NCBI RefSeq assembly: GCF_014198245.1
Contig: NZ_JACIHE010000019.1
Coordinates: 1 to 64,000 of the forward strand
From: Bradyrhizobium sp. cir1
GTDB taxonomy: Bacteria; Pseudomonadota; Alphaproteobacteria; Rhizobiales; Xanthobacteraceae
Reading direction: 5' to 3'
Length of the DNA stretch: 64,000 nt
In this document: piece by piece, positions 48,788 through 58,437 of the stretch
Numbering within the stretch: position 1 is the stretch's first letter
Layout of the letters: each line of letters begins with the position of its first letter
Made by a program: the position numbers and the translations under genes
Notes under the pieces: generated by a model
Databases searched by the model: none
The model's input: the letters and a program-made list of their open reading frames with translations, nothing else
Told to the model about the DNA's origin: nothing

Positions 48788-49597
48788 ATGGAAACCGAAG
48801 CGGCGACCAGAACGCCTGTCGTGGTCTTCCGGAAGGCACTGCTGAGTTCACCCGGACCACTTCGCGCCGACGCGTCTGCTCTGGGAACGTTGCCCACAGC
48901 CGCATTCCAGTACTGCGAGGCAATTCGGACGGCATCCTCCTTCGGCTGGTACATCTTTCCTCCCTGCGATATCCGGGCGCTTTGGGACGGGACCCAGATC
49001 TTGCTGGCCAGGAACGGAGAATGGTGTCCGCTGGATGCGGTCCCCTATGATGTCGTGAGCGATGTTGACCCGACATTCATCGATTACTGGGGCAAGTTCG
49101 CGCCTCCCGATATGAAGAAGAATTGGCCCCCGCTCGTCACGGGGTTGTTTCATCCGGGCGTTTTGCAAATATGGTCGGGATTGCTGGTTACGACGGCAAA
49201 GGGTTGGGGGCTGAGTGTGGGCCCGACTTGCAATTTGCGCAGCTCCAGTGACTACGTCCCATATGAAGCAATCGTCGAGGCGAATAATTGTCGGCCTCTT
49301 TTCATCAACGTGCAGCTGATCGCGACCGGCAGAGAGATCTTCATTTCCAGGAGCCGGCCGTTGTTTCAGGTCAAGCCGGTGCATGAGAGCTGCTTCTCGG
49401 ACGAGACAATGCGCTGCGAAGAGCTGGACGGTATCGCACCGGTTGGGGATGCCGAAACGGGGATGAAGGAAGCGGACTGGAACGGATATCGTGCGTCAGT
49501 CAGCTTGTTGTATGAGCCCGAGGCATTTTCGCCGGGGCGCTACGCGGTCGAACGACGGAAAAGCCGGAAACGAGATCACCCCAAGGTTGTTCGCTAA
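48788..49597 (+). CDS. Hypothetical protein (possibly DUF6065)
   Basis: A 269-residue protein. The recognisable architecture is an N-terminal strand, a C-rich GWYIFPPCDIRALWDGTQIL segment near residues 50-70, LVTTAKGWGLSVGPTCNLRS near 135-155 and the beta-rich middle. This pattern is reminiscent of DUF6065, but I am not certain. Two Cys-containing segments may bind a ligand. The last 40 residues are basic and may be disordered (RRKSRKRDHPK). It is upstream of the YcaO gene on the same strand, 850 bases away. Confidence 0.6.
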   Translation: METEAATRTPVVVFRKALLSSPGPLRADASALGTLPTAAFQYCEAIRTASSFGWYIFPPCDIRALWDGTQILLARNGEWCPLDAVPYDVVSDVDPTFIDYWGKFAPPDMKKNWPPLVTGLFHPGVLQIWSGLLVTTAKGWGLSVGPTCNLRSSSDYVPYEAIVEANNCRPLFINVQLIATGREIFISRSRPLFQVKPVHESCFSDETMRCEELDGIAPVGDAETGMKEADWNGYRASVSLLYEPEAFSPGRYAVERRKSRKRDHPKVVR

Positions 49598-49770
49598 CCG
49601 ATGGCTGACGGTCAACTCGACCATGCGGCCGCGGGCTCACAACCCGCGGATCGATCAACTCGGGCTGCCAGGCCTGGAAGCCGCCGCTGCGAGGGTTGAA
49701 GGGCGACACCGTCAACAGGGATGTCTGCCTGATCGGGAATAACCTCCGGGTGCGGGCGGCGGCGCGCCGC

Positions 49771-50283
49771 TCAGCTGATGAACTCGCCGACCCAGTTGTG
49801 CCTGACAGCCTCGACGTGCCAGCCCAATGCGCGTCGCGCGTTCGGCGCGGGATCCGGCTCATCGCTTCGGATATCGCAATCGGGGCGTCGCGCACAATGT
49901 GCATGGCGTCCTTCGCTCCGCAGTCGGAACGTCCCCTGTGACTCGAATATCCGGCTGTAGCCGTCGGTCGGGAAAAATGTTCCTGCAATTGGAAAATGGG
50001 TCGGCTGCTGCCGAACCATCAGGAAGGTGATGTCCTCCGCGCTTGCCGACAGGAGAATGCCGACCGCCGTATTGACCGGCGCGAGGCCGATCGGAGCATC
50101 GGCCTCCGGCTCGACCTTGCCTGCTGCGCTCGCGATCGTGAGGAATTCCGAGTTCGGACCGCAGCGGGATACGATGATCCAGCGCCGAACCTTGCGCCTG
50201 ATCGAGATCGGTCGGTGATAGGCCGCAAAGGAAAATTCCGCAGCCATCGCAACGACAAAACCATTTTTCCACATGCCGGCCAT
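49771..50283 (-). CDS. Hypothetical protein, unrecognised
   Basis: A 170-residue frame with good GC-rich third positions. Strands such as FAAYHRPISI, RRWIIVSRCG and NTAVGILLSASAEDITFLMV suggest an alpha/beta fold. The Met start at 50283 lacks a good ribosome-binding site; internal Met13 is possible. The C-terminus has Arg, His and Cys-rich segments (RHAHCARRPDCD). Divergent from the YcaO gene, about 160 bases apart. I do not recognise it, and part of the frame could be non-coding. Confidence 0.5.
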   Translation of the reverse strand: MAGMWKNGFVVAMAAEFSFAAYHRPISIRRKVRRWIIVSRCGPNSEFLTIASAAGKVEPEADAPIGLAPVNTAVGILLSASAEDITFLMVRQQPTHFPIAGTFFPTDGYSRIFESQGTFRLRSEGRHAHCARRPDCDIRSDEPDPAPNARRALGWHVEAVRHNWVGEFIS

Positions 50284-50446
50284 CTAACCCGTTACGCTCG
50301 TGGGCCGATCATCGTGTGAGGGGCGTGAAGCCAGCGTGAATTCGCCCGGCCGCGGCGAAATCGCACGAATTTCTTGACCTTGCGCCGGGCCTTGATGGCA
50401 TGCTGGCGATCGAACCTTGACCCTGCCGGGACGCGGAACTCGATCG

Positions 50447-51790
50447 ATGGAAGCATCCAGGGCATCCAACCAGTTCGAGCGGCTGGCCGCATACCTCGCG
50501 GGCTCGCGGATGCGTGGCCGGGACAGCGAGCTGGCCACCATTCTCGAAAAGTTCGAATATCTCCCGCTGGACGGGACGGAGCCGTCGCAAACACGGAGCC
50601 GCGTCGCGCTGCTCCAGGCGGCGGCCAGATTTTCCGACGTCTTCCAGCTGGCGTCCCGCGATGCGCCCGGGGTCACGTTCTTTGGCGCGACCATCAGCGC
50701 AGCCGGCATCGATTCCACCTTCGCACATCAGGCGCGGTCGAGCGCGTCGGGCGCCGGTCTGTCGCTTCGTCAGGCCTTCGAATCCTGCATCGGGGAAGGG
50801 GTCGAGTATCTCTCGCAGTTCGAGACCTCGTTGGATCGGCTCCGGCAGGGCCCGATCGAGGACGGGCTTGCCGCCTTTGATCCCGCATCCCGGGCGGTCC
50901 TCTCCGAATTCATGCGACTGTCGGCGCGCGACAATGTCGACTGGATCGAGGCAACGCAGCTGTCGAGCGGCCGGTCGGTGCCGTTTCCGGCGGATCTGTG
51001 CCTGCGGCGCACGGCTGATCGGAGCGCGCTCACGCCGCCATTCAGCCTGAGCTCGGGTTGCGCGGCCGGCACTTCGTTCGAGACGGCCGCGTTGCACGGG
51101 ATGCTGGAGCTGGTCGAGCGGGATGCGGCCAGCCTCTGGTGGCGCGGCGGCATTCGCGGGCGGCTGGTTGCGCTCGAAGGGCCGGCCATGGCGGCGGCCG
51201 CAGCCTGGATTTCCCGGGCGCGGCGCGGCGTGACGACCAGGCGGACTTGGCTGCTCGACATAACCACCGATATCGACGTGCCCTGCATCGTCGCGATGTC
51301 CTGTCATGACGATGGCCGTGGCTTCGCCTGCGGGCTGGCAGCCCGTCTCAGCGTCGAAGCTGCGATCCGCTCGGCGCTGACGGAGATGTGCCAGATGGAG
51401 CTCGCCTATGCCGTCGTGGAACGGAAGCGCCGGGAAGGCGGCGAAGAAGCGTTGAACGAATATGATCATCGTCATATCGCCCGCAGCACGCTGATCGATG
51501 CGGCAAGTTGCGAGCTGCTGCATCCGGTTGCACCAAGCCGTGCCACTGGCGGGTTCGCTCCGGGCACGCCGACGCAACAGCTTGCCGCACTCGTTGAACG
51601 ATTGTCGGCCAGAGGTATCGAGACGTTTGCAATCGATCTGTCCCGTCCCATGTTCGGGATTGCCGTCGTGCGGATCGCCGCGCCTGCGCTCCAGATGGAG
51701 CCGTCCGACGTTGCCACCGAACGTCTGGTCTCCGCACAGCGCCAGACCGGAGGAGCCGATCTCTATACACGCGGGATTAGTTTGTTATAG
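50447..51790 (+). CDS. YcaO-family enzyme (ATP-dependent amide modification)
   Basis: A 447-residue YcaO-domain protein. YcaO enzymes use ATP to activate a peptide amide for cyclodehydration, thioamidation or related chemistry. ATP/Mg-binding blocks are visible: SGAGLSLRQAFESCIGEGVE near residues 101-120 and SSGCAAGTSFETAALHGMLE followed by LVERDAASLWW near 202-232 (Glu221, Glu224, Asp226). An N-terminal domain of about 75 residues precedes them. The C-terminus ends GADLYTRGISLL without the Pro-rich PxPxP end common in azoline-forming YcaOs. No TfuA, E1-like partner or obvious precursor is adjacent. Start chosen at ATG 50447; a TTG ten codons upstream is possible. It is followed closely by the SARP-like regulator. 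Confidence 0.85.
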   Translation: MEASRASNQFERLAAYLAGSRMRGRDSELATILEKFEYLPLDGTEPSQTRSRVALLQAAARFSDVFQLASRDAPGVTFFGATISAAGIDSTFAHQARSSASGAGLSLRQAFESCIGEGVEYLSQFETSLDRLRQGPIEDGLAAFDPASRAVLSEFMRLSARDNVDWIEATQLSSGRSVPFPADLCLRRTADRSALTPPFSLSSGCAAGTSFETAALHGMLELVERDAASLWWRGGIRGRLVALEGPAMAAAAAWISRARRGVTTRRTWLLDITTDIDVPCIVAMSCHDDGRGFACGLAARLSVEAAIRSALTEMCQMELAYAVVERKRREGGEEALNEYDHRHIARSTLIDAASCELLHPVAPSRATGGFAPGTPTQQLAALVERLSARGIETFAIDLSRPMFGIAVVRIAAPALQMEPSDVATERLVSAQRQTGGADLYTRGISLL

Positions 51791-51832
51791 TTGCTGCTAT
51801 TCTTAAGTGCGTTTTATCAGGGCGGATCAGAC

Positions 51833-53929
51833 GTGAGCGCTCGGGCACAACTTTCGAAGTCCCTTGCAAGGGATGGTGGACTTCCCAAGCCGCGCGAAAG
51901 CCTGACGATTTCCGTTTTGGGCGGTCTGTCCGTTGCATTTGCGGGGCGGGAAATCCGCGTCAAGAGCCGAAAGTCGCGGGCGGTTCTCGGCTATCTGGCG
52001 TTGACCGACCGTCATCAGGAAACACGCGAGCGTCTGGTCGGGCTGCTGTGGAGCGAATCCGACGAGTACAAGGCGCGTGCATCGCTTCGCCAGGTCCTCC
52101 ATGAGTTGCGGGAGACGTTCCTGAACGCGGGATACGACGGGTTGCAGATCGAGAAAATGCTCGTCGAATTGGAGCGCGAAGGGCTCCGTGTCGATCTCCT
52201 GGACGCCTTGCGCGAGGCCGAATCCCAACATGCGCATCCGCTGTTGATGACTGCGCCCGGTCTCATGGAGACGCTGCTCGCGGGGCTCGACGATATCGAC
52301 CCATCGTTCCGTGTCTGGCTGCTTGCCAAGCGGCAAACCTTTCACGACCGTATCCTGCGTGCTCTCGAGGCCGGTCTGAGGAACGCCGAGCTTCCCGTGG
52401 CGAACAGGCGCGCGCTGGCCGAGGCAATCCTCAGTCTCGACCCGACCCACGAGGAGGCATGCCGCTACGCGATGCAGACGCGCGCGGAAGAGGGCGACAT
52501 GTCCGGAGCGCTGCGTGTCTACAAGACCTTGTGGAATATCCTCGACGAAGAATACGGCATGGAGCCCTCGGCGAAGACCCAGCAATTGATCGCCGAGATC
52601 AAGAACGGTCAGTTCGAGAGCGAGGCCCCGTCCATTGCGAGCGATCCGGTGCTGAGGGACGGCGTGCAGGCGGCTGCGCATGAGGCTCCACCATCGTCGG
52701 CACAATCCCGGACGGCTGCCAAGATCGCGATCCTGGTCGATCCGTTCAGCATGAACGGCGTGAGCGCGGATCGCGTCCATCTGGTGACGGGCTTTCGCCA
52801 TCACTTCATCGCGTGCCTGACCAAGTTTCGCGAGTGGTATGTCGGAGACGGCACCGCGCAGCAGCCGCTCGCATCGGGAGAGCGGGCGGCTGCATCCCGC
52901 TACAGCATCGCGGCAACGGCCTATCAGGCGGGCGACACGATCAGCATGGTCCTGACCCTGCGCGAGACCAACACCGGTGTCTATATCTGGAGCGACACGT
53001 TCGAGCTGAATCTCGAGAACTGGTTTCTGGCGCAGCAGCGGATCGTGCAGCGCACGGCACTGTCGGTGAACGTCTATCTGTCGACCGAGCGTCTGACCCG
53101 CGTGGCCGCTGCGCCAGACGTGTCGCTGGATATCTATGACCGATGGCTGCGTGCGCAGGCGATTATCGGAAGCTTCAGCGCCGAACACTGGCGCAATTCG
53201 ATTGCGGTCCTGACCGAGGCGATCAACGTCGCGCCGAGCTTCTCTCCCTGCTACAGCGCGTTGGTTCAACTGAACAACACCGAGCATCTGGTCTTTCCCG
53301 GCCTGTTCCGCGATTTGAAGAAGGCGCGGTCCACGCTTGAGCTTGCCAGAAGGGCGGTGCAGCTCGATCCCGTCGATTCCCGGGCCCAGCTCTGTCTCGG
53401 CTGGTCGCAGGCGATGCTGATGCAATATTCGGAAGCCAGCGCCCACATCGATCTCGCATGCGAGCTCAACGGCAACGATCCCTGGACGCTGCTGTCGGCG
53501 GCCTCCTGTCAGGGGTTTTGCGGCAATTTCGAACGCGGCAGCGAGCTCGTCGCCGAAGCCCTCAAAGTGTCATGGACGCCGCCGCCGCTACATTGGCCGT
53601 ATCGCGCCGTGCTTCAATTCATGCGGGGCAATTACCTCGACGCGATCGAGGGGATCGACCGGGCCCAGAACGTGGCGAAAACGCTTCCGGGCTGGAAGGC
53701 CGCCGCGCTGTTTCATCTCGGACGAAAGGACGAGGCGCGCCTCGAGGCCAGCAAGTTCCTCGACGGCCTCCGCGCGATATGGTTCGGCAAGGAGCCGACC
53801 GACCGCGAGATCGCACTCTGGTTCCTTCATGCGCATCCGATTGCGCGAAGTGAGGATTGGGAACGCCTGCGCGACGGCATAGGCGGTGCAGGCGTTCCGG
53901 TTGACGACCTCAGGCATCACGCGTGGTGA
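51833..53929 (+). CDS. SARP/BTAD regulator with TolB-like and TPR domains
   Basis: A 698-residue regulator. Order: OmpR-like winged helix (residues about 24-110; KSRKSRAVLGYLALTDR and ERLVGLLWSESDEYKARASL), bacterial transcriptional activation domain (about 110-265), a TolB-like beta domain (about 300-420, KIAILVDPFSMNGVSADRV, and GVYIWSDTFELNLENW) and C-terminal TPR-type helices (about 450-690). This resembles antibiotic-regulator SARPs with an adenylate-cyclase-type sensor region. It probably activates the adjacent YcaO locus. GTG 51833 was preferred over a TTG at 51791 that directly abuts the YcaO stop; either way the genes are about 42 bases apart or less and probably linked. Confidence 0.88.
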   Translation: MSARAQLSKSLARDGGLPKPRESLTISVLGGLSVAFAGREIRVKSRKSRAVLGYLALTDRHQETRERLVGLLWSESDEYKARASLRQVLHELRETFLNAGYDGLQIEKMLVELEREGLRVDLLDALREAESQHAHPLLMTAPGLMETLLAGLDDIDPSFRVWLLAKRQTFHDRILRALEAGLRNAELPVANRRALAEAILSLDPTHEEACRYAMQTRAEEGDMSGALRVYKTLWNILDEEYGMEPSAKTQQLIAEIKNGQFESEAPSIASDPVLRDGVQAAAHEAPPSSAQSRTAAKIAILVDPFSMNGVSADRVHLVTGFRHHFIACLTKFREWYVGDGTAQQPLASGERAAASRYSIAATAYQAGDTISMVLTLRETNTGVYIWSDTFELNLENWFLAQQRIVQRTALSVNVYLSTERLTRVAAAPDVSLDIYDRWLRAQAIIGSFSAEHWRNSIAVLTEAINVAPSFSPCYSALVQLNNTEHLVFPGLFRDLKKARSTLELARRAVQLDPVDSRAQLCLGWSQAMLMQYSEASAHIDLACELNGNDPWTLLSAASCQGFCGNFERGSELVAEALKVSWTPPPLHWPYRAVLQFMRGNYLDAIEGIDRAQNVAKTLPGWKAAALFHLGRKDEARLEASKFLDGLRAIWFGKEPTDREIALWFLHAHPIARSEDWERLRDGIGGAGVPVDDLRHHAW

Positions 53930-53941
53930 ACGATCCGTCGC

Positions 53942-54334
53942 TCAGGCACAGAACTTGATCGTGTACTCGCCGACGCGCTTGGAATGGAATAGCATCCTGC
54001 CCGAGGGGGTATCGTTCTCCAGATTGCTGTCCTTCATGTCGTCCGTGTAGAACATCGGAAGCGGGTAGTTGGCCGCGCCCATCAATGCTTTTTCGGTCTC
54101 GGCGAGCACCTCGGCGTCGGGCAGCTTGATGAGCAGCGTGCCGTCCTTGTAGCTCGGCTGGATGAACGCGATCTCGGTGAACGGGCGGGGGAATTTCGCC
54201 ATCACGCCGGCATCCTCGAGCTGTTTCTGGAATTCGGCGATGGTGGTCGGGCGCGACTTGGCGTCGCGCGCCCACTTCTTCACGAGGTCACCCCAGACAT
54301 CATAGTTCACGATGTCGAACATCTCGGTCTGCAT
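53942..54334 (-). CDS. Unrecognised 130-residue protein in the YcaO/peroxidase locus
   Basis: A 130-residue soluble protein. It starts MQTEMFDIVNYDVWGDLVKK, has IAEFQKQLEDAGVMAKFPRP and a beta-rich core (FTEIAFIQPSYKDGTLLIKL, PDAEVLAETEKALMG), and ends HSKRVGEYTIKFCA, with a Cys next to the last residue. GGGAG lies seven bases before the ATG. It follows the haem peroxidase by 40 bases and is probably co-transcribed. No leader-core precursor features are obvious (the end is not Cys/Ser/Thr-rich), but as the small partner near a YcaO it is a candidate substrate or accessory protein. Confidence 0.72.
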   Translation of the reverse strand: MQTEMFDIVNYDVWGDLVKKWARDAKSRPTTIAEFQKQLEDAGVMAKFPRPFTEIAFIQPSYKDGTLLIKLPDAEVLAETEKALMGAANYPLPMFYTDDMKDSNLENDTPSGRMLFHSKRVGEYTIKFCA

Positions 54335-54374
54335 GGCTATCTCCCTTGGTATCGACCGGCGGAATTGCCGGCTG

Positions 54375-56129
54375 TTAGAGGAACGTCGGATCGGCATGTT
54401 GCAGATTTGCGATATCGGCGATGAACGGGACGAGGTCGCCCATGCTCTCGAGCTCCGGCACGAAGTCGAGGCGGTTCGTGGTGTAGATGCGCGACGACAG
54501 GCGGGAGAGCGAGTCCTTGAGGCTGCTCGCTGAAGTCTCGTCCGGCATCCTGCCCTCGAGCATCGCCCCGAAAATGACCTCGGCGACGATGATCGAGCCC
54601 AGCACGCCGAGCGTCTTGCCCTGCTTCACCGGATCATCCGGACCCATGGCTGCTTCGAACAGGATGTAGAAGGACAGCGGCGGCTCGTCTGCGAGGGTCT
54701 GAATGTCGGCATCGGTCAGCTCGTCGCGGTTCTGCTCGAGCCAGGCCCGCAGCTGCGCCACGCGATAGCCGCGATCTTCGAGCAGCCGATCGCTGCCGAC
54801 CAGGGCGGGCTGGCGCGATCGGATCTCGTCGACGAGGCTGTTCACCGACCACAGGCCGGCGAAAGCGGCACTCATCAGATCCTTGTATGCGAGGCCCCAT
54901 GCCCCGTTGGCGGCAATCGGGGGAAACAGCGATCGATCATAGAGCTGTCCGCTGAAGTGCGGGCTGATGCGCATGCTCGATTGCGGCCGAGGCCTGCCCG
55001 GCACGTCGAAGAACTGCGACCAGCTTGCAATCCATTTCCGGTGCAATGGCATGCTGCCGGGCGCGGAATAGGATGTTGCTCGCAGCACCGCGCCGAGCGG
55101 AAAGGCGTTGTCGGGATTGATCTGGTAGCTGTCGCGAACCATCGCATGCCCGAAGCGAAATGCGGCATGCGTGAATTCCAGCGGTATCAGCGACCCGCGA
55201 GAAAGCGGGTGCGCGGACGAAGCACTCAGCAAGTGAGGCTGATCGACATTATACCTGCTGTAGATCCTGCGGTTGAGGACCCTGCGCATCACGTCGCGGC
55301 GTATGATGTTGCGGTAGATCAGCGTGGCCGCGCCGCGCGCGCAGAGAAACGCCTTGTCGGTCGCCGCGGTATCGGAATCGGTCGTGCCCGCCATCGGCTG
55401 GGCGAGCTTTGCCAGGAGACCATTGTGGAGATGGTGGAACAGGGTCGTGAGCTGGGACAGGATCGCGTGATCGTCATTGCGTTGGTCGGCAATCAAGACG
55501 TCGGTCAGCCGCTGCGGCTGGCTGTTCGGATCCCAGGGGCAGGCAACACGCGCAATGTCGCGGCCTTTCGGATTCATCTCGACGGGGTCTTCGCTGTTGA
55601 CCCCGCCGCCGCCCAGACGCAGCCTCGAGCGCGCCGCCTTCGGCCTCGCTTCGTAGGCAAGCGGGCATACTTCCGGCCCCCCGCCGTAGATCGTATCGAG
55701 CTTCAACCGGTAGGCCCGGTCATTGCGTACGCCGGTCGCGGTATTTTCGAGCTCCGATATCGGGAATGACGTTTGCACGAGGTCGTGTGCCACGAGCTGC
55801 AGGAGGTAGGTATATCCGGCCGGAATGTCGGAATTTTCCAGCGGGCCCCGGCCGTTCTCCCACACCGGCGCGACGCGCATGCGCCGGGCAAGGCGCTCCA
55901 TCAAGCCGCGTAGCCGCGTCCTGCTCTCGTCCGATTTGAGCGGATCGTCGCCGTCGACCTTGAACCGCTGCTCCAGCGGCAACGTATCCAGGTCGGACAG
56001 GAAATGCCGGAAGCCCGAAATGCCCTGGCCGGGTGGTTCGGGGGCGCCGGACGCCGTCGGTCCCGCGTCTCGGATCGTGTCGCCGAGTTGCTCTCGCGCA
56101 AGGGAGAAGCCGCCACCATGTCTGCCCAT
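54375..56129 (-). CDS. Animal-type haem peroxidase
   Basis: A 584-residue peroxidase of the animal haem peroxidase (peroxidasin-like) superfamily, found in some bacteria. It has the distal block YTYLLQLVAHDLVQTSFP (His115, Asp116), a catalytic-Arg region RNDDHAILSQLTTLFHHLHN (residues 217-236), and the proximal helix FTHAAFRFGHAMVRDSYQIN (His328). No signal peptide or membrane anchor is evident, so it is probably cytoplasmic or exported by another route. GGGAGG precedes the ATG at 56129; 52 upstream open codons are excluded. Bacterial members oxidise halides or small molecules. Divergent from the 106-residue gene at 56389 and convergent with the YcaO/SARP genes. Confidence 0.9.
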   Translation of the reverse strand: MGRHGGGFSLAREQLGDTIRDAGPTASGAPEPPGQGISGFRHFLSDLDTLPLEQRFKVDGDDPLKSDESRTRLRGLMERLARRMRVAPVWENGRGPLENSDIPAGYTYLLQLVAHDLVQTSFPISELENTATGVRNDRAYRLKLDTIYGGGPEVCPLAYEARPKAARSRLRLGGGGVNSEDPVEMNPKGRDIARVACPWDPNSQPQRLTDVLIADQRNDDHAILSQLTTLFHHLHNGLLAKLAQPMAGTTDSDTAATDKAFLCARGAATLIYRNIIRRDVMRRVLNRRIYSRYNVDQPHLLSASSAHPLSRGSLIPLEFTHAAFRFGHAMVRDSYQINPDNAFPLGAVLRATSYSAPGSMPLHRKWIASWSQFFDVPGRPRPQSSMRISPHFSGQLYDRSLFPPIAANGAWGLAYKDLMSAAFAGLWSVNSLVDEIRSRQPALVGSDRLLEDRGYRVAQLRAWLEQNRDELTDADIQTLADEPPLSFYILFEAAMGPDDPVKQGKTLGVLGSIIVAEVIFGAMLEGRMPDETSASSLKDSLSRLSSRIYTTNRLDFVPELESMGDLVPFIADIANLQHADPTFL

Positions 56130-56388
56130 CGTTGACCTCCCAAAGTCACGAGCGACCCTATTTGCGGCAACGTGATTTGAACGTGAATCGACCCTGCACA
56201 AGCGACGAGCTCCGATCCGTCGTCGGATCGTCGGTGGCGAATGGTGCAAGCATGAGGGCAGGGCGGCCAGCCCCCGTAGCGTCAAATCCTATCGGATTCA
56301 CGCACTGTTCACGATTCGCTTCGCTACGCCCGCCTATGGTTCGCCCGCGATCGCAGGATCGCGCAACTTGGCGAGGGAGAGGTGCATC

Positions 56389-56709
56389 ATGACTGTCCTG
56401 CTGAGAAACACCTTCAGGGCCTGGATCGACCGTGCGCCGGGGGCGCCGCCCAGGCTGATCATGATTGGCGACGTGCGGGTCCCGAGCAATGGCTGGCAGG
56501 CCCGCCTGACCAAGCGCTCACCACAGGGGATCAATCCGAAGATCCTGATCCTCGATGTGAACGCGGAGCAGCCGGCCGGCGCGGCGCAGGAGGAGATCAC
56601 CACGATCCCGCTTCGCTACGAGGAGAGCCCGCCGCAGGACGAATATGGTCAGGTGATGATCGCACATGGCCGGGGCGAAATCGTCGTCAGCATAGGCCGC
56701 ACGCATTAG
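56389..56709 (+). CDS. Hypothetical protein, unrecognised
   Basis: A 106-residue protein, probably soluble. It contains LIMIGDVRVPSNGWQARLTK and a beta-rich run ending DEYGQVMIAHGRGEIVVSIG. The preceding GAGAGG supports the ATG at 56389. It might be a small beta-sandwich or SH3-like protein; I cannot assign a family. It is divergent from the peroxidase and 186 bases before the tRNA gene, so it marks the right edge of the accessory locus. Confidence 0.65.
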   Translation: MTVLLRNTFRAWIDRAPGAPPRLIMIGDVRVPSNGWQARLTKRSPQGINPKILILDVNAEQPAGAAQEEITTIPLRYEESPPQDEYGQVMIAHGRGEIVVSIGRTH

Positions 56710-57201: not shown

Positions 57202-58437
57202 TTGTCTTTTGCGACCCGCCTGAAGTCACTTCTCGGTATCGAGACCAAAGCCGTGTCTGGCGTCGCCTCGCCGGAGGCTTGGCTGTTCGATCTGTTGGGT
57301 GCGACCCCGACCCTGGCCGGTGTAGTGGTCAACCCCTGGAGCGCCATGACATGCGCGCCCGTGGCGTGCGCTGTGCGGTCGATCTCCGAGCCGGCCGGCT
57401 CTCTTCCCCTTCACATCTACAAAAAGCTTCCGGACGGCGGCAAAGAGAAGGCCACCGACCATTCGGCCTACAAGCTTCTTCATGACGCGCCGAACAGCTT
57501 CACGCCGGCCGCGCTGTTTCGCACCCAGGTCATGGCTGACGCGCTGTTGCAGCCACATGGCGGCTTCGCGCTCATCAATCGCGTCGACGGCAAGCCCTAT
57601 GAGTTGATCCGGCTCGACCCGATCAGCCAATCCATTGCCGTCGACTATTCCGAGCTTGAACCGACCTACAAGCTGAACGGCCGCGATATCGATGGCGCGG
57701 ACCTGATCCATATCCCGACCCCAGCTTACGATCCCCGCAATGGCCTGGTTGGTGAAGGCCGCGAAGCGATCGGACTTGCTCTCACGCTTGAACGTCACGC
57801 CGCGCGCCTATTCGGCAAAGGCGGCCGCCCCAGCGGCATGCTTTCGACGAAGGGCGCGCAAACCATCGACTCGCTGACAAAGATTGGTGCGGCGTGGAAA
57901 GCAGCGCACGGCGGCGACAATTCCGGTGGCACTGCAATCCTGCCGTCCGATGTTTCCTGGCAGTCGATCACCCTCAGTTCTGTAGACGCTCAGTTCCTCG
58001 AAATGAGGAACTACGCCGTCCGCGAGATCGGCCGGCTGTTTCGTGTTCCGCCGCATATGCTGATGGACCCAGATCGCTCAACGCCCCGCAGCCTGGAATC
58101 GATCGGCCAAGAATTCGTTGAATTGGCGTTGCTGCCCCGCCTGAAAGCGTTCGAGCAAGAGCTTGAGTTGAAGCTTCTGACGCCGGAAGAGCGCGATCAG
58201 TATTGCATCGAATTCAACGTTGACGGTTTCGCGCGCGCCGATCTCCTCACGCGAGCACAAGCCATGAGCACCGCTGTTTCCTCGCGCGTCCTCAATCCCA
58301 ACGAAGCTCGACAGATGGGCTTTGGCTTGCCCGCCTATGAGGGCGGCGACGTGTTCGAAAACTTCAACACTTCATCTGCTCATGCCGGCGGCAAGCTCAA
58401 CGGCAACGACAACAACAAACAAGAGGAAGCGGCCTGA
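57202..58437 (+). CDS. Phage portal protein (HK97 family)
   Basis: A 411-residue portal protein through which phage DNA enters the capsid. Family blocks: WSAMTCAPVACAVRSISEPA near residues 35-54, RTQVMADALLQPHGGFALIN near 97-116, YDPRNGLVGEGREAI, GRLFRVPPHMLMDPDRSTPR near 278-297, and a Gln/Asn-rich basic tail. It starts at TTG 57202 with an in-frame TGA twelve bases upstream; no ribosome-binding site is evident, so an upstream terminase gene may be missing or lost. It overlaps the next gene by one base. Confidence 0.92.
   Translation: MSFATRLKSLLGIETKAVSGVASPEAWLFDLLGATPTLAGVVVNPWSAMTCAPVACAVRSISEPAGSLPLHIYKKLPDGGKEKATDHSAYKLLHDAPNSFTPAALFRTQVMADALLQPHGGFALINRVDGKPYELIRLDPISQSIAVDYSELEPTYKLNGRDIDGADLIHIPTPAYDPRNGLVGEGREAIGLALTLERHAARLFGKGGRPSGMLSTKGAQTIDSLTKIGAAWKAAHGGDNSGGTAILPSDVSWQSITLSSVDAQFLEMRNYAVREIGRLFRVPPHMLMDPDRSTPRSLESIGQEFVELALLPRLKAFEQELELKLLTPEERDQYCIEFNVDGFARADLLTRAQAMSTAVSSRVLNPNEARQMGFGLPAYEGGDVFENFNTSSAHAGGKLNGNDNNKQEEAA

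Follow-up and report, generated by a model that had tools for sequence, protein, structure and literature searches.

The DNA analysed here, called the window throughout, is a stretch of 64,000 nucleotides at the start of contig 19 (NZ_JACIHE010000019.1) in the 8.65 Mb genome of Bradyrhizobium sp. cir1; by YcaO sequence, the nearest named relatives are also Bradyrhizobium. It carries a gene cassette consisting of a YcaO enzyme, a SARP-like regulator, a small protein of 130 residues (p130) and an animal-type haem peroxidase. An earlier reading made from the letters alone (the sequence-only reading) had assigned these genes to a single system spanning 48788–56709. Pfam matches and gene order bear out that gene set and arrangement, and the boundaries prove to be narrower than the proposed span. 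The features, in window coordinates and with lengths in amino acids (aa), are as follows:

50447..51790, + strand: YcaO enzyme, ~447 aa (PF02624, E 3.2e-54)
51791..53929, + strand: SARP-like BTAD regulator, an open reading frame (ORF) of 712 aa (PF03704, E 6.7e-10; weak TPR matches)
53942..54334, − strand: p130, 130 aa, candidate structured precursor or substrate; new family, C-terminal tail RVGEYTIKFCA
54375..56129, − strand: animal-type haem peroxidase, 584 aa from a conserved ATG (PF03098, E 7.7e-8)
49771..50283, − strand: p170, 170 residues, divergent, upstream of YcaO, accessory; matched in 26 of 42 other loci

YcaO and SARP lie on the forward strand and face p130 and the peroxidase on the reverse strand (YcaO>SARP> <p130<peroxidase), with the SARP and p130 stops tail to tail, 12 bases apart, and 40 bases separating the stop of the peroxidase from the start codon of p130. 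The starts at 50447 (YcaO), 54334 (p130) and 56129 (peroxidase) are the likely ones, placed by orthologues: the YcaO ORF is open from a TTG at 50417, and the orthologues in loci L032 and L033 begin at the position of the ATG at 50447. As read open, the p130 ORF covers 53942–54397 (−) and the peroxidase ORF extends to 56285, beyond its conserved ATG; the true start of SARP may be slightly downstream, as most orthologues align from about residue 31. The YcaO domain (PF02624) scores 184.9 bits against a cut-off of 25.7, the peroxidase domain (PF03098) 31.8 bits against 25, and the BTAD domain (PF03704) 39.9 bits against 22.1. A Trans_reg_C winged-helix DNA-binding match in the regulator reaches 13.9 bits, below its cut-off of 26.2, and the TolB domain that the sequence-only reading had placed in this protein is not seen by Pfam.

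Conservation and co-divergence of the cassette

Co-occurrence of the four genes was assessed in 149 relatives, many of them closely related to one another, so that the counts lack independence. At E≤0.001 the YcaO query matched 70 of the 149; in many of these genomes the match was a different YcaO of greater length. The clade to which the window enzyme belongs (E≤1e-40) is present in 31. p130 was found in 29 relatives, all within these 31 YcaO-clade genomes, the other two being G094 and G125. SARP (E≤1e-60) occurs in 31 relatives, namely the 29 with p130 together with G094 and G145, the latter of which has a divergent p130 that was overlooked by the first p130 profile. The peroxidase at the same threshold is found in 28 relatives, every one of them with p130, and G088 is the single p130 genome among the relatives that lacks the peroxidase clade. 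Counted from p130, therefore, all 29 carriers have the YcaO clade, all 29 the SARP clade and 28 the peroxidase clade. With the genome of the window included, the p130 profile detected 3 of 385 genomes of the class and 6 of 398 of the phylum, and a broader profile detected 27 of 397 genomes of the order (window genome again included), distributed over 17 of 141 genera. Two p130 queries gave no match in the plasmid collection.

Neighbourhoods were viewed for 25 of the 27 order genomes, G1001 and G1101, which share a genus with two of those viewed, being left out; L032 was dropped because it lies on the same contig as L040 (G088). All four genes were matched in 35 of 42 loci, window included, which argues that the arrangement is more than chance. 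Within the 35, L033 retains only a peroxidase remnant of 37 residues, and contig ends truncate both L035 and L054. The remaining loci are L040, without the peroxidase; L065, without SARP; L056 and L108, which are two contigs of one genome; L070, without p130 or peroxidase; L071, with YcaO only; and L148, with no SARP in the stretch and one elsewhere in the same genome. A further 14 loci found via p130 carried YcaO in 14 cases, SARP in 13 and the peroxidase in 12, and SARP adjoins YcaO in most loci. The check that the sequence-only reading had put forward, genome-wide co-occurrence of YcaO, SARP, peroxidase and p130, was thus borne out (29 of 149 relatives; 35 of 42 loci), and the objection that these genes do not keep company in other genomes is refuted.

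Across 34 loci, the correlations between distance matrices for the four proteins lie at 0.90–0.98, and 0 of 999 permutations reached the observed value in a Mantel test, a correlation that would also arise from shared species history alone; this set left out L054 and the loci lacking a gene, and kept L033 with its peroxidase remnant. Compared by their flanks, 35 loci form 17 groups: a large one with 16 loci, a second with four, and 15 singletons, some of which are short contigs. Ratios of nonsynonymous to synonymous substitution (Ka/Ks) between the window and L041 were 0.19 for YcaO, 0.13 for SARP, 0.23 for p130, 0.17 for p170 and 0.18 for the peroxidase. Between L033 and L040, both of which have lost the peroxidase, the p130 Ka/Ks was 0.20; purifying selection on p130 therefore persists after peroxidase loss, which points to a YcaO–p130 link independent of the peroxidase. 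YcaO, SARP and p130 form the core of the cassette, and the peroxidase is an added, optional step.

Variant loci were also seen. In L063 (7178–9928) YcaO is split into two parts separated by about 1.5 kb, with SARP, p130 and peroxidase that look whole, so that some YcaO copies are evidently broken. In the Rhodopila metagenome-assembled genomes L039 (9746–13762) and L036 (9863–13494), a related YcaO is followed by a large ORF in place of SARP, which in L039 is a PAS/histidine-kinase/receiver hybrid, and no p130 was found.

The p130 family and its C-terminal tail

Twenty-one p130 members gave no Pfam or NCBIfam match at E<0.05, and comparison with solved sequences and fold searches returned nothing convincing; p130 is a new protein family. 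An AlphaFold model built from six sequences has a mean predicted local distance difference test (pLDDT) score of 78 (54 to 78 over five models) and consists of two helices, two strands, a helix and a C-terminal helix. In 17 diverse members, P29, L71, P72, P93, Y96, R120, Y124 and C129 are invariant.

The C-terminal tail was assessed without circularity by removing the last 14 residues from 15 diverse p130s and searching 59 loci with the shortened queries. These matched 55 of the 59 loci and 56 p130 copies, and all 56 copies close with R-x-x-[DE]-Y-x4-C-x-stop, the pattern always lying equally far from the stop. Four positions are invariant in all copies, among them Tyr(-7) and Cys(-2), whose spacing is constant, and the last residue is variable. 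The four unmatched loci comprise L056, which ends at a contig end, L070 and L071, in which no p130 was found, and L180, which has a tailed p130 found by profile. The tail Tyr and Cys are also kept in the loci without a peroxidase (L033, L040, L176 and L182). Position -6 is T in 49 copies, S in four, C in one and V in two, and the notion that the residue following the tail Tyr must be T, S or C is weakened by the two copies with Val. Locus L171 (9045–9842, genome G1159) contains two tandem p130 genes with an identical tail pattern.

p130 has several traits of a precursor of a ribosomally synthesised and post-translationally modified peptide (RiPP): it is small (130 aa), it is linked to a modifying enzyme, and its C-terminal part is conserved in 56 of 56 copies. 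A small protein that is nearly always linked to a YcaO and bears a tail fixed to the stop, with an invariant Tyr and penultimate Cys, looks like a YcaO substrate. A near-invariant core in many genera, together with the lack of any protease or exporter gene conserved alongside the cassette in the 16 loci with gene tables, suggests a conserved product (a cofactor, a signal or a protein-borne centre) rather than a fast-changing antibiotic.

The same observations allow other roles for p130. It may remain uncut and itself be the mature product, with a protein-derived redox or metal centre in the Tyr...Cys tail that YcaO builds, the peroxidase taking part in its making or its use. The near-invariance of the tail across 17 genera, the conserved body with its predicted fold and the lack of a conserved protease or exporter in the gene tables would all suit such a protein, but p130 matches no known fold or metal-site family and proteases may be encoded elsewhere in the genome; we regard this as unlikely. 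A second alternative, in which p130 serves the YcaO (or the peroxidase) as a partner or recognition protein while another gene elsewhere encodes the real substrate, draws on the conservation of p130 along its length, on a YcaO without a recognisable recognition domain and on the lack of significant similarity between p130 and the precursors with nitrile hydratase-like (NHLP) leaders. The strongest constraint, however, falls on the stop-anchored tail including its penultimate Cys, and outside Bradyrhizobium no other small gene is conserved alongside the cassette in the 16 gene tables, which makes this alternative distinctly unlikely.

The NHLP leader model TIGR03793 has no match at p130 in the genome of the window or in 21 p130s. 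An "LPP" motif and a hairpin had suggested by eye that p130 could be an NHLP homologue; hhalign gave E values of 0.025 and 0.059 over 24 columns, which are not significant, and the likeness is a resemblance only. Elsewhere, G583 (L139–L142) has eleven TIGR03793 matches, six of them above the cut-off, forming a rich proteusin-like set. Two tandem weak NHLP-like matches lie in one 286-aa frame at G000:C1:409500-409895, and such tandem NHLP-like pairs below the cut-off recur across many genomes of the order.

The YcaO enzyme, the haem peroxidase and the proposed modification

The window YcaO is the only one in its genome, and the description of it in the sequence-only reading as a stand-alone enzyme agrees with this and with the absence of TfuA from that genome. 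All 39 YcaOs that reach 330 aa or more possess E127, E231, E234, R235, E323 and Q326, which we take to be the expected ATP-site residues; shorter YcaOs were excluded from the count. The nearest solved YcaOs by sequence are TruD and LynD, and LynD is the top fold match of the predicted structure (pLDDT 76; 44 to 76 over five models). The nearest NCBIfam model, TIGR03604 (SagD family), scores 141.4 bits against a cut-off of 219.25. No E1/ThiF protein, RiPP recognition element (RRE) or flavin dehydrogenase is among the genes widely conserved with the cassette in the 16 gene tables, no genome-wide search having been aimed at E1 or the dehydrogenase.

In the peroxidase, H167, R269 and H380, presumably the distal His, Arg and proximal His of a haem peroxidase, are retained in 35 of 35 proteins of at least 430 aa, with shorter ones excluded. 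Sequence comparison yielded no solved relative at E 0.01, and inspection by eye, made without a predictor, shows no signal peptide. Most of the gene is gone in L033 and L040, and matches in L176 and L182 are weak (E 0.007 or above); in all, two groups lack the peroxidase and retain YcaO, SARP and p130. The peroxidase is therefore a candidate optional tailoring enzyme. The reverse order, in which the peroxidase acts first or alone, for example by oxidising or crosslinking the p130 Tyr and Cys, with YcaO acting on its product, would fit the intact active-site residues and the constant spacing of Tyr(-7) and Cys(-2); retention of the same two residues in the four loci where the peroxidase is absent runs counter to it, and we consider it improbable. 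Two further peroxidase observations may be recorded: a second, distant peroxidase (~25% identity) adjoins the cassette YcaO in L147 (14003–15235) and L069 (5059–6324), and a peroxidase fragment with 56% identity over 97 aa at G055:C2:1360046-1360351, in a genome without p130, is perhaps a decayed cassette.

Our preferred reading, which we hold to have about an even chance of being correct, is that the product of the cassette is the small structured protein p130 with its C-terminal tail modified. p130 would fold into a helical/beta domain that is recognised directly by the stand-alone YcaO, which with ATP would activate a backbone amide in the tail R-x-G-D-Y-T-I-x-x-C-x. The reaction most probably takes place at the invariant penultimate Cys or beside it, and might yield either a thiazoline (−18 Da) or, with a shift of about +16 Da, a thioamide. 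In loci that have the peroxidase, this enzyme may afterwards oxidise the tail, either converting the ring to an azole in place of a flavin dehydrogenase or acting on the invariant Tyr, and SARP would govern expression of the cassette. The analysis itself shows the cassette, its conservation, the conserved active-site residues, the invariant tail and the optional nature of the peroxidase; the role of p130 as substrate, where and how it reacts, which step comes first and how the genes are regulated are inferred. The YcaO-based, RiPP-like modification of the sequence-only reading gains from co-occurrence, the sole YcaO, the absence of TfuA and the invariant tail; the oxidative step that it had placed after the modification turns out to be optional and not constant.

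Several observations weigh against this reading of a modified p130 tail. The C-terminal PxPxP of azoline formers occurs in the last 25 residues of 0 of 41 YcaOs, a few of which are fragments, and TfuA (PF07812), the thioamidation partner, was not found in the genome of the window. The former speaks against an azoline and the latter against a thioamide, and for these reasons the cassette is filed neither as a thiazole/oxazole-modified microcin (TOMM) cluster nor as a YcaO-TfuA cluster. The first 70 residues of YcaO are modelled as three helices with no RRE-like wing. p130 is conserved over its full length and not in the tail alone, as a folded partner would be, position -6 is Val in two of the 56 copies, and L070 and L071 possess YcaO with no p130 found.

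The sequence-only reading had named a housekeeping target such as ribosomal S12 as a finding that would overturn it; this is unlikely, given the patchy cassette (31 of 149 relatives) and a p130 that is nearly always linked. There is a precedent for such a role, as E. coli YcaO is described as thioamidating ribosomal uL16 (PMC13063428). That the window enzyme likewise modifies uL16 or another housekeeping protein, its neighbours being incidental, is nevertheless very improbable in view of its patchy clade, the constant linkage of the cassette genes, its greater similarity to TruD and LynD than to other solved YcaOs, and an isoelectric point (pI) of 6.0 against the 4.4 given for the E. coli enzyme in that account. 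The two enzymes are alike in that the E. coli YcaO is reported to work without a partner protein and to read a folded substrate; they differ in that the E. coli enzyme is acidic and has a housekeeping target, whereas the cassette is patchy and has its own linked small protein.

Relation to known systems and neighbouring genes

A search of the open-access literature, with most subscription papers outside its reach, found no description of the YcaO, SARP, p130 and peroxidase set, in keeping with the earlier statement that no defined system with this combination was known to that reader. Peptide modification that depends on a YcaO has been described before; what appears to be new is the p130 family with its tail, and the pairing with a peroxidase. 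Near-invariant precursor motifs are characteristic of the pyrroloquinoline quinone (PQQ) and mycofactocin type precursors, which are acted on by radical S-adenosylmethionine (SAM) enzymes, and the p130 tail resembles them in suggesting a conserved product such as a cofactor; it differs in that no radical SAM gene was seen conserved with the cassette, no search having been aimed at radical SAM. TruD and LynD, the cyanobactin heterocyclases that are the nearest solved relatives of the YcaO domain, are ~780 aa long with extra N-terminal domains, compared with ~447 aa and three modelled helices here, and their precursor is unrelated.

MprC, an azoline-forming YcaO, is described as recognising folded NHLP leaders (PMC12455567), which provides a precedent for recognition of a folded p130. 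The MprC/MprE system is similar in that the N-terminal part of the precursor acted on by the YcaO is folded, and p130 has a similar helix-helix-strand-strand-"LPP" layout. As presented in that report, MprC has an RRE domain, is accompanied by the flavin oxidase MprD and uses NHLP-leader precursors; here a haem peroxidase replaces the flavin enzyme and p130 has no significant NHLP match. The YcaO-TfuA thioamidation clusters likewise combine a YcaO with a linked candidate precursor and count Bradyrhizobium among their reported hosts, but TfuA is lacking in the genome of the window, and the main text of the source (PMC8120280) mentions neither a peroxidase nor a SARP. The daptide YcaO is also said to modify the C-terminal end of a peptide; by the same account it acts after oxidative decarboxylation and amination by other enzymes and has the PxPxP that is lacking here (PMC12338566).

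That the cassette yields a peptide- or protein-derived cofactor or signal from the near-invariant Tyr...Cys tail, by way of a stand-alone YcaO that reads a folded substrate without a separate RRE, E1 or TfuA partner and with peroxidase tailoring, is a tentative proposal that we doubt more than we favour; it would be a type of YcaO pathway new to the literature. The cassette is a candidate self-contained YcaO pathway that occurs in many genera and for which both a candidate substrate and a site can be named: the penultimate Cys and, five residues before it, the Tyr. Were such a pathway confirmed, tailoring by a haem peroxidase would join the reactions of YcaO pathways, and there would be an example of a YcaO that needs no separate recognition partner to read a folded substrate; a conserved cofactor or signal of rhizobia and related bacteria might also come to light.

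Among the neighbouring genes, p170, which the sequence-only reading had not named, gave no Pfam match in two orthologues and is not in distant cassettes; besides p170, a 96-aa gene is also widely conserved beside the cassette in the 16 gene tables. Two ORFs at the ends of the originally proposed span were rejected as cassette members: the DUF6065 ORF at 48788–49597 (+), for which none of the 42 other loci compared holds a homologue, and the ORF at 56368–56709, which was matched in only three of them. The DUF6065 gene sits between a transporter-like gene and the cassette and is read as a recent local insertion. Just past the cassette begins a phage portal protein gene (57202–58437, + strand; PF04860, E 4.7e-76), which suggests that a prophage or its remnant lies to the right of the cassette.

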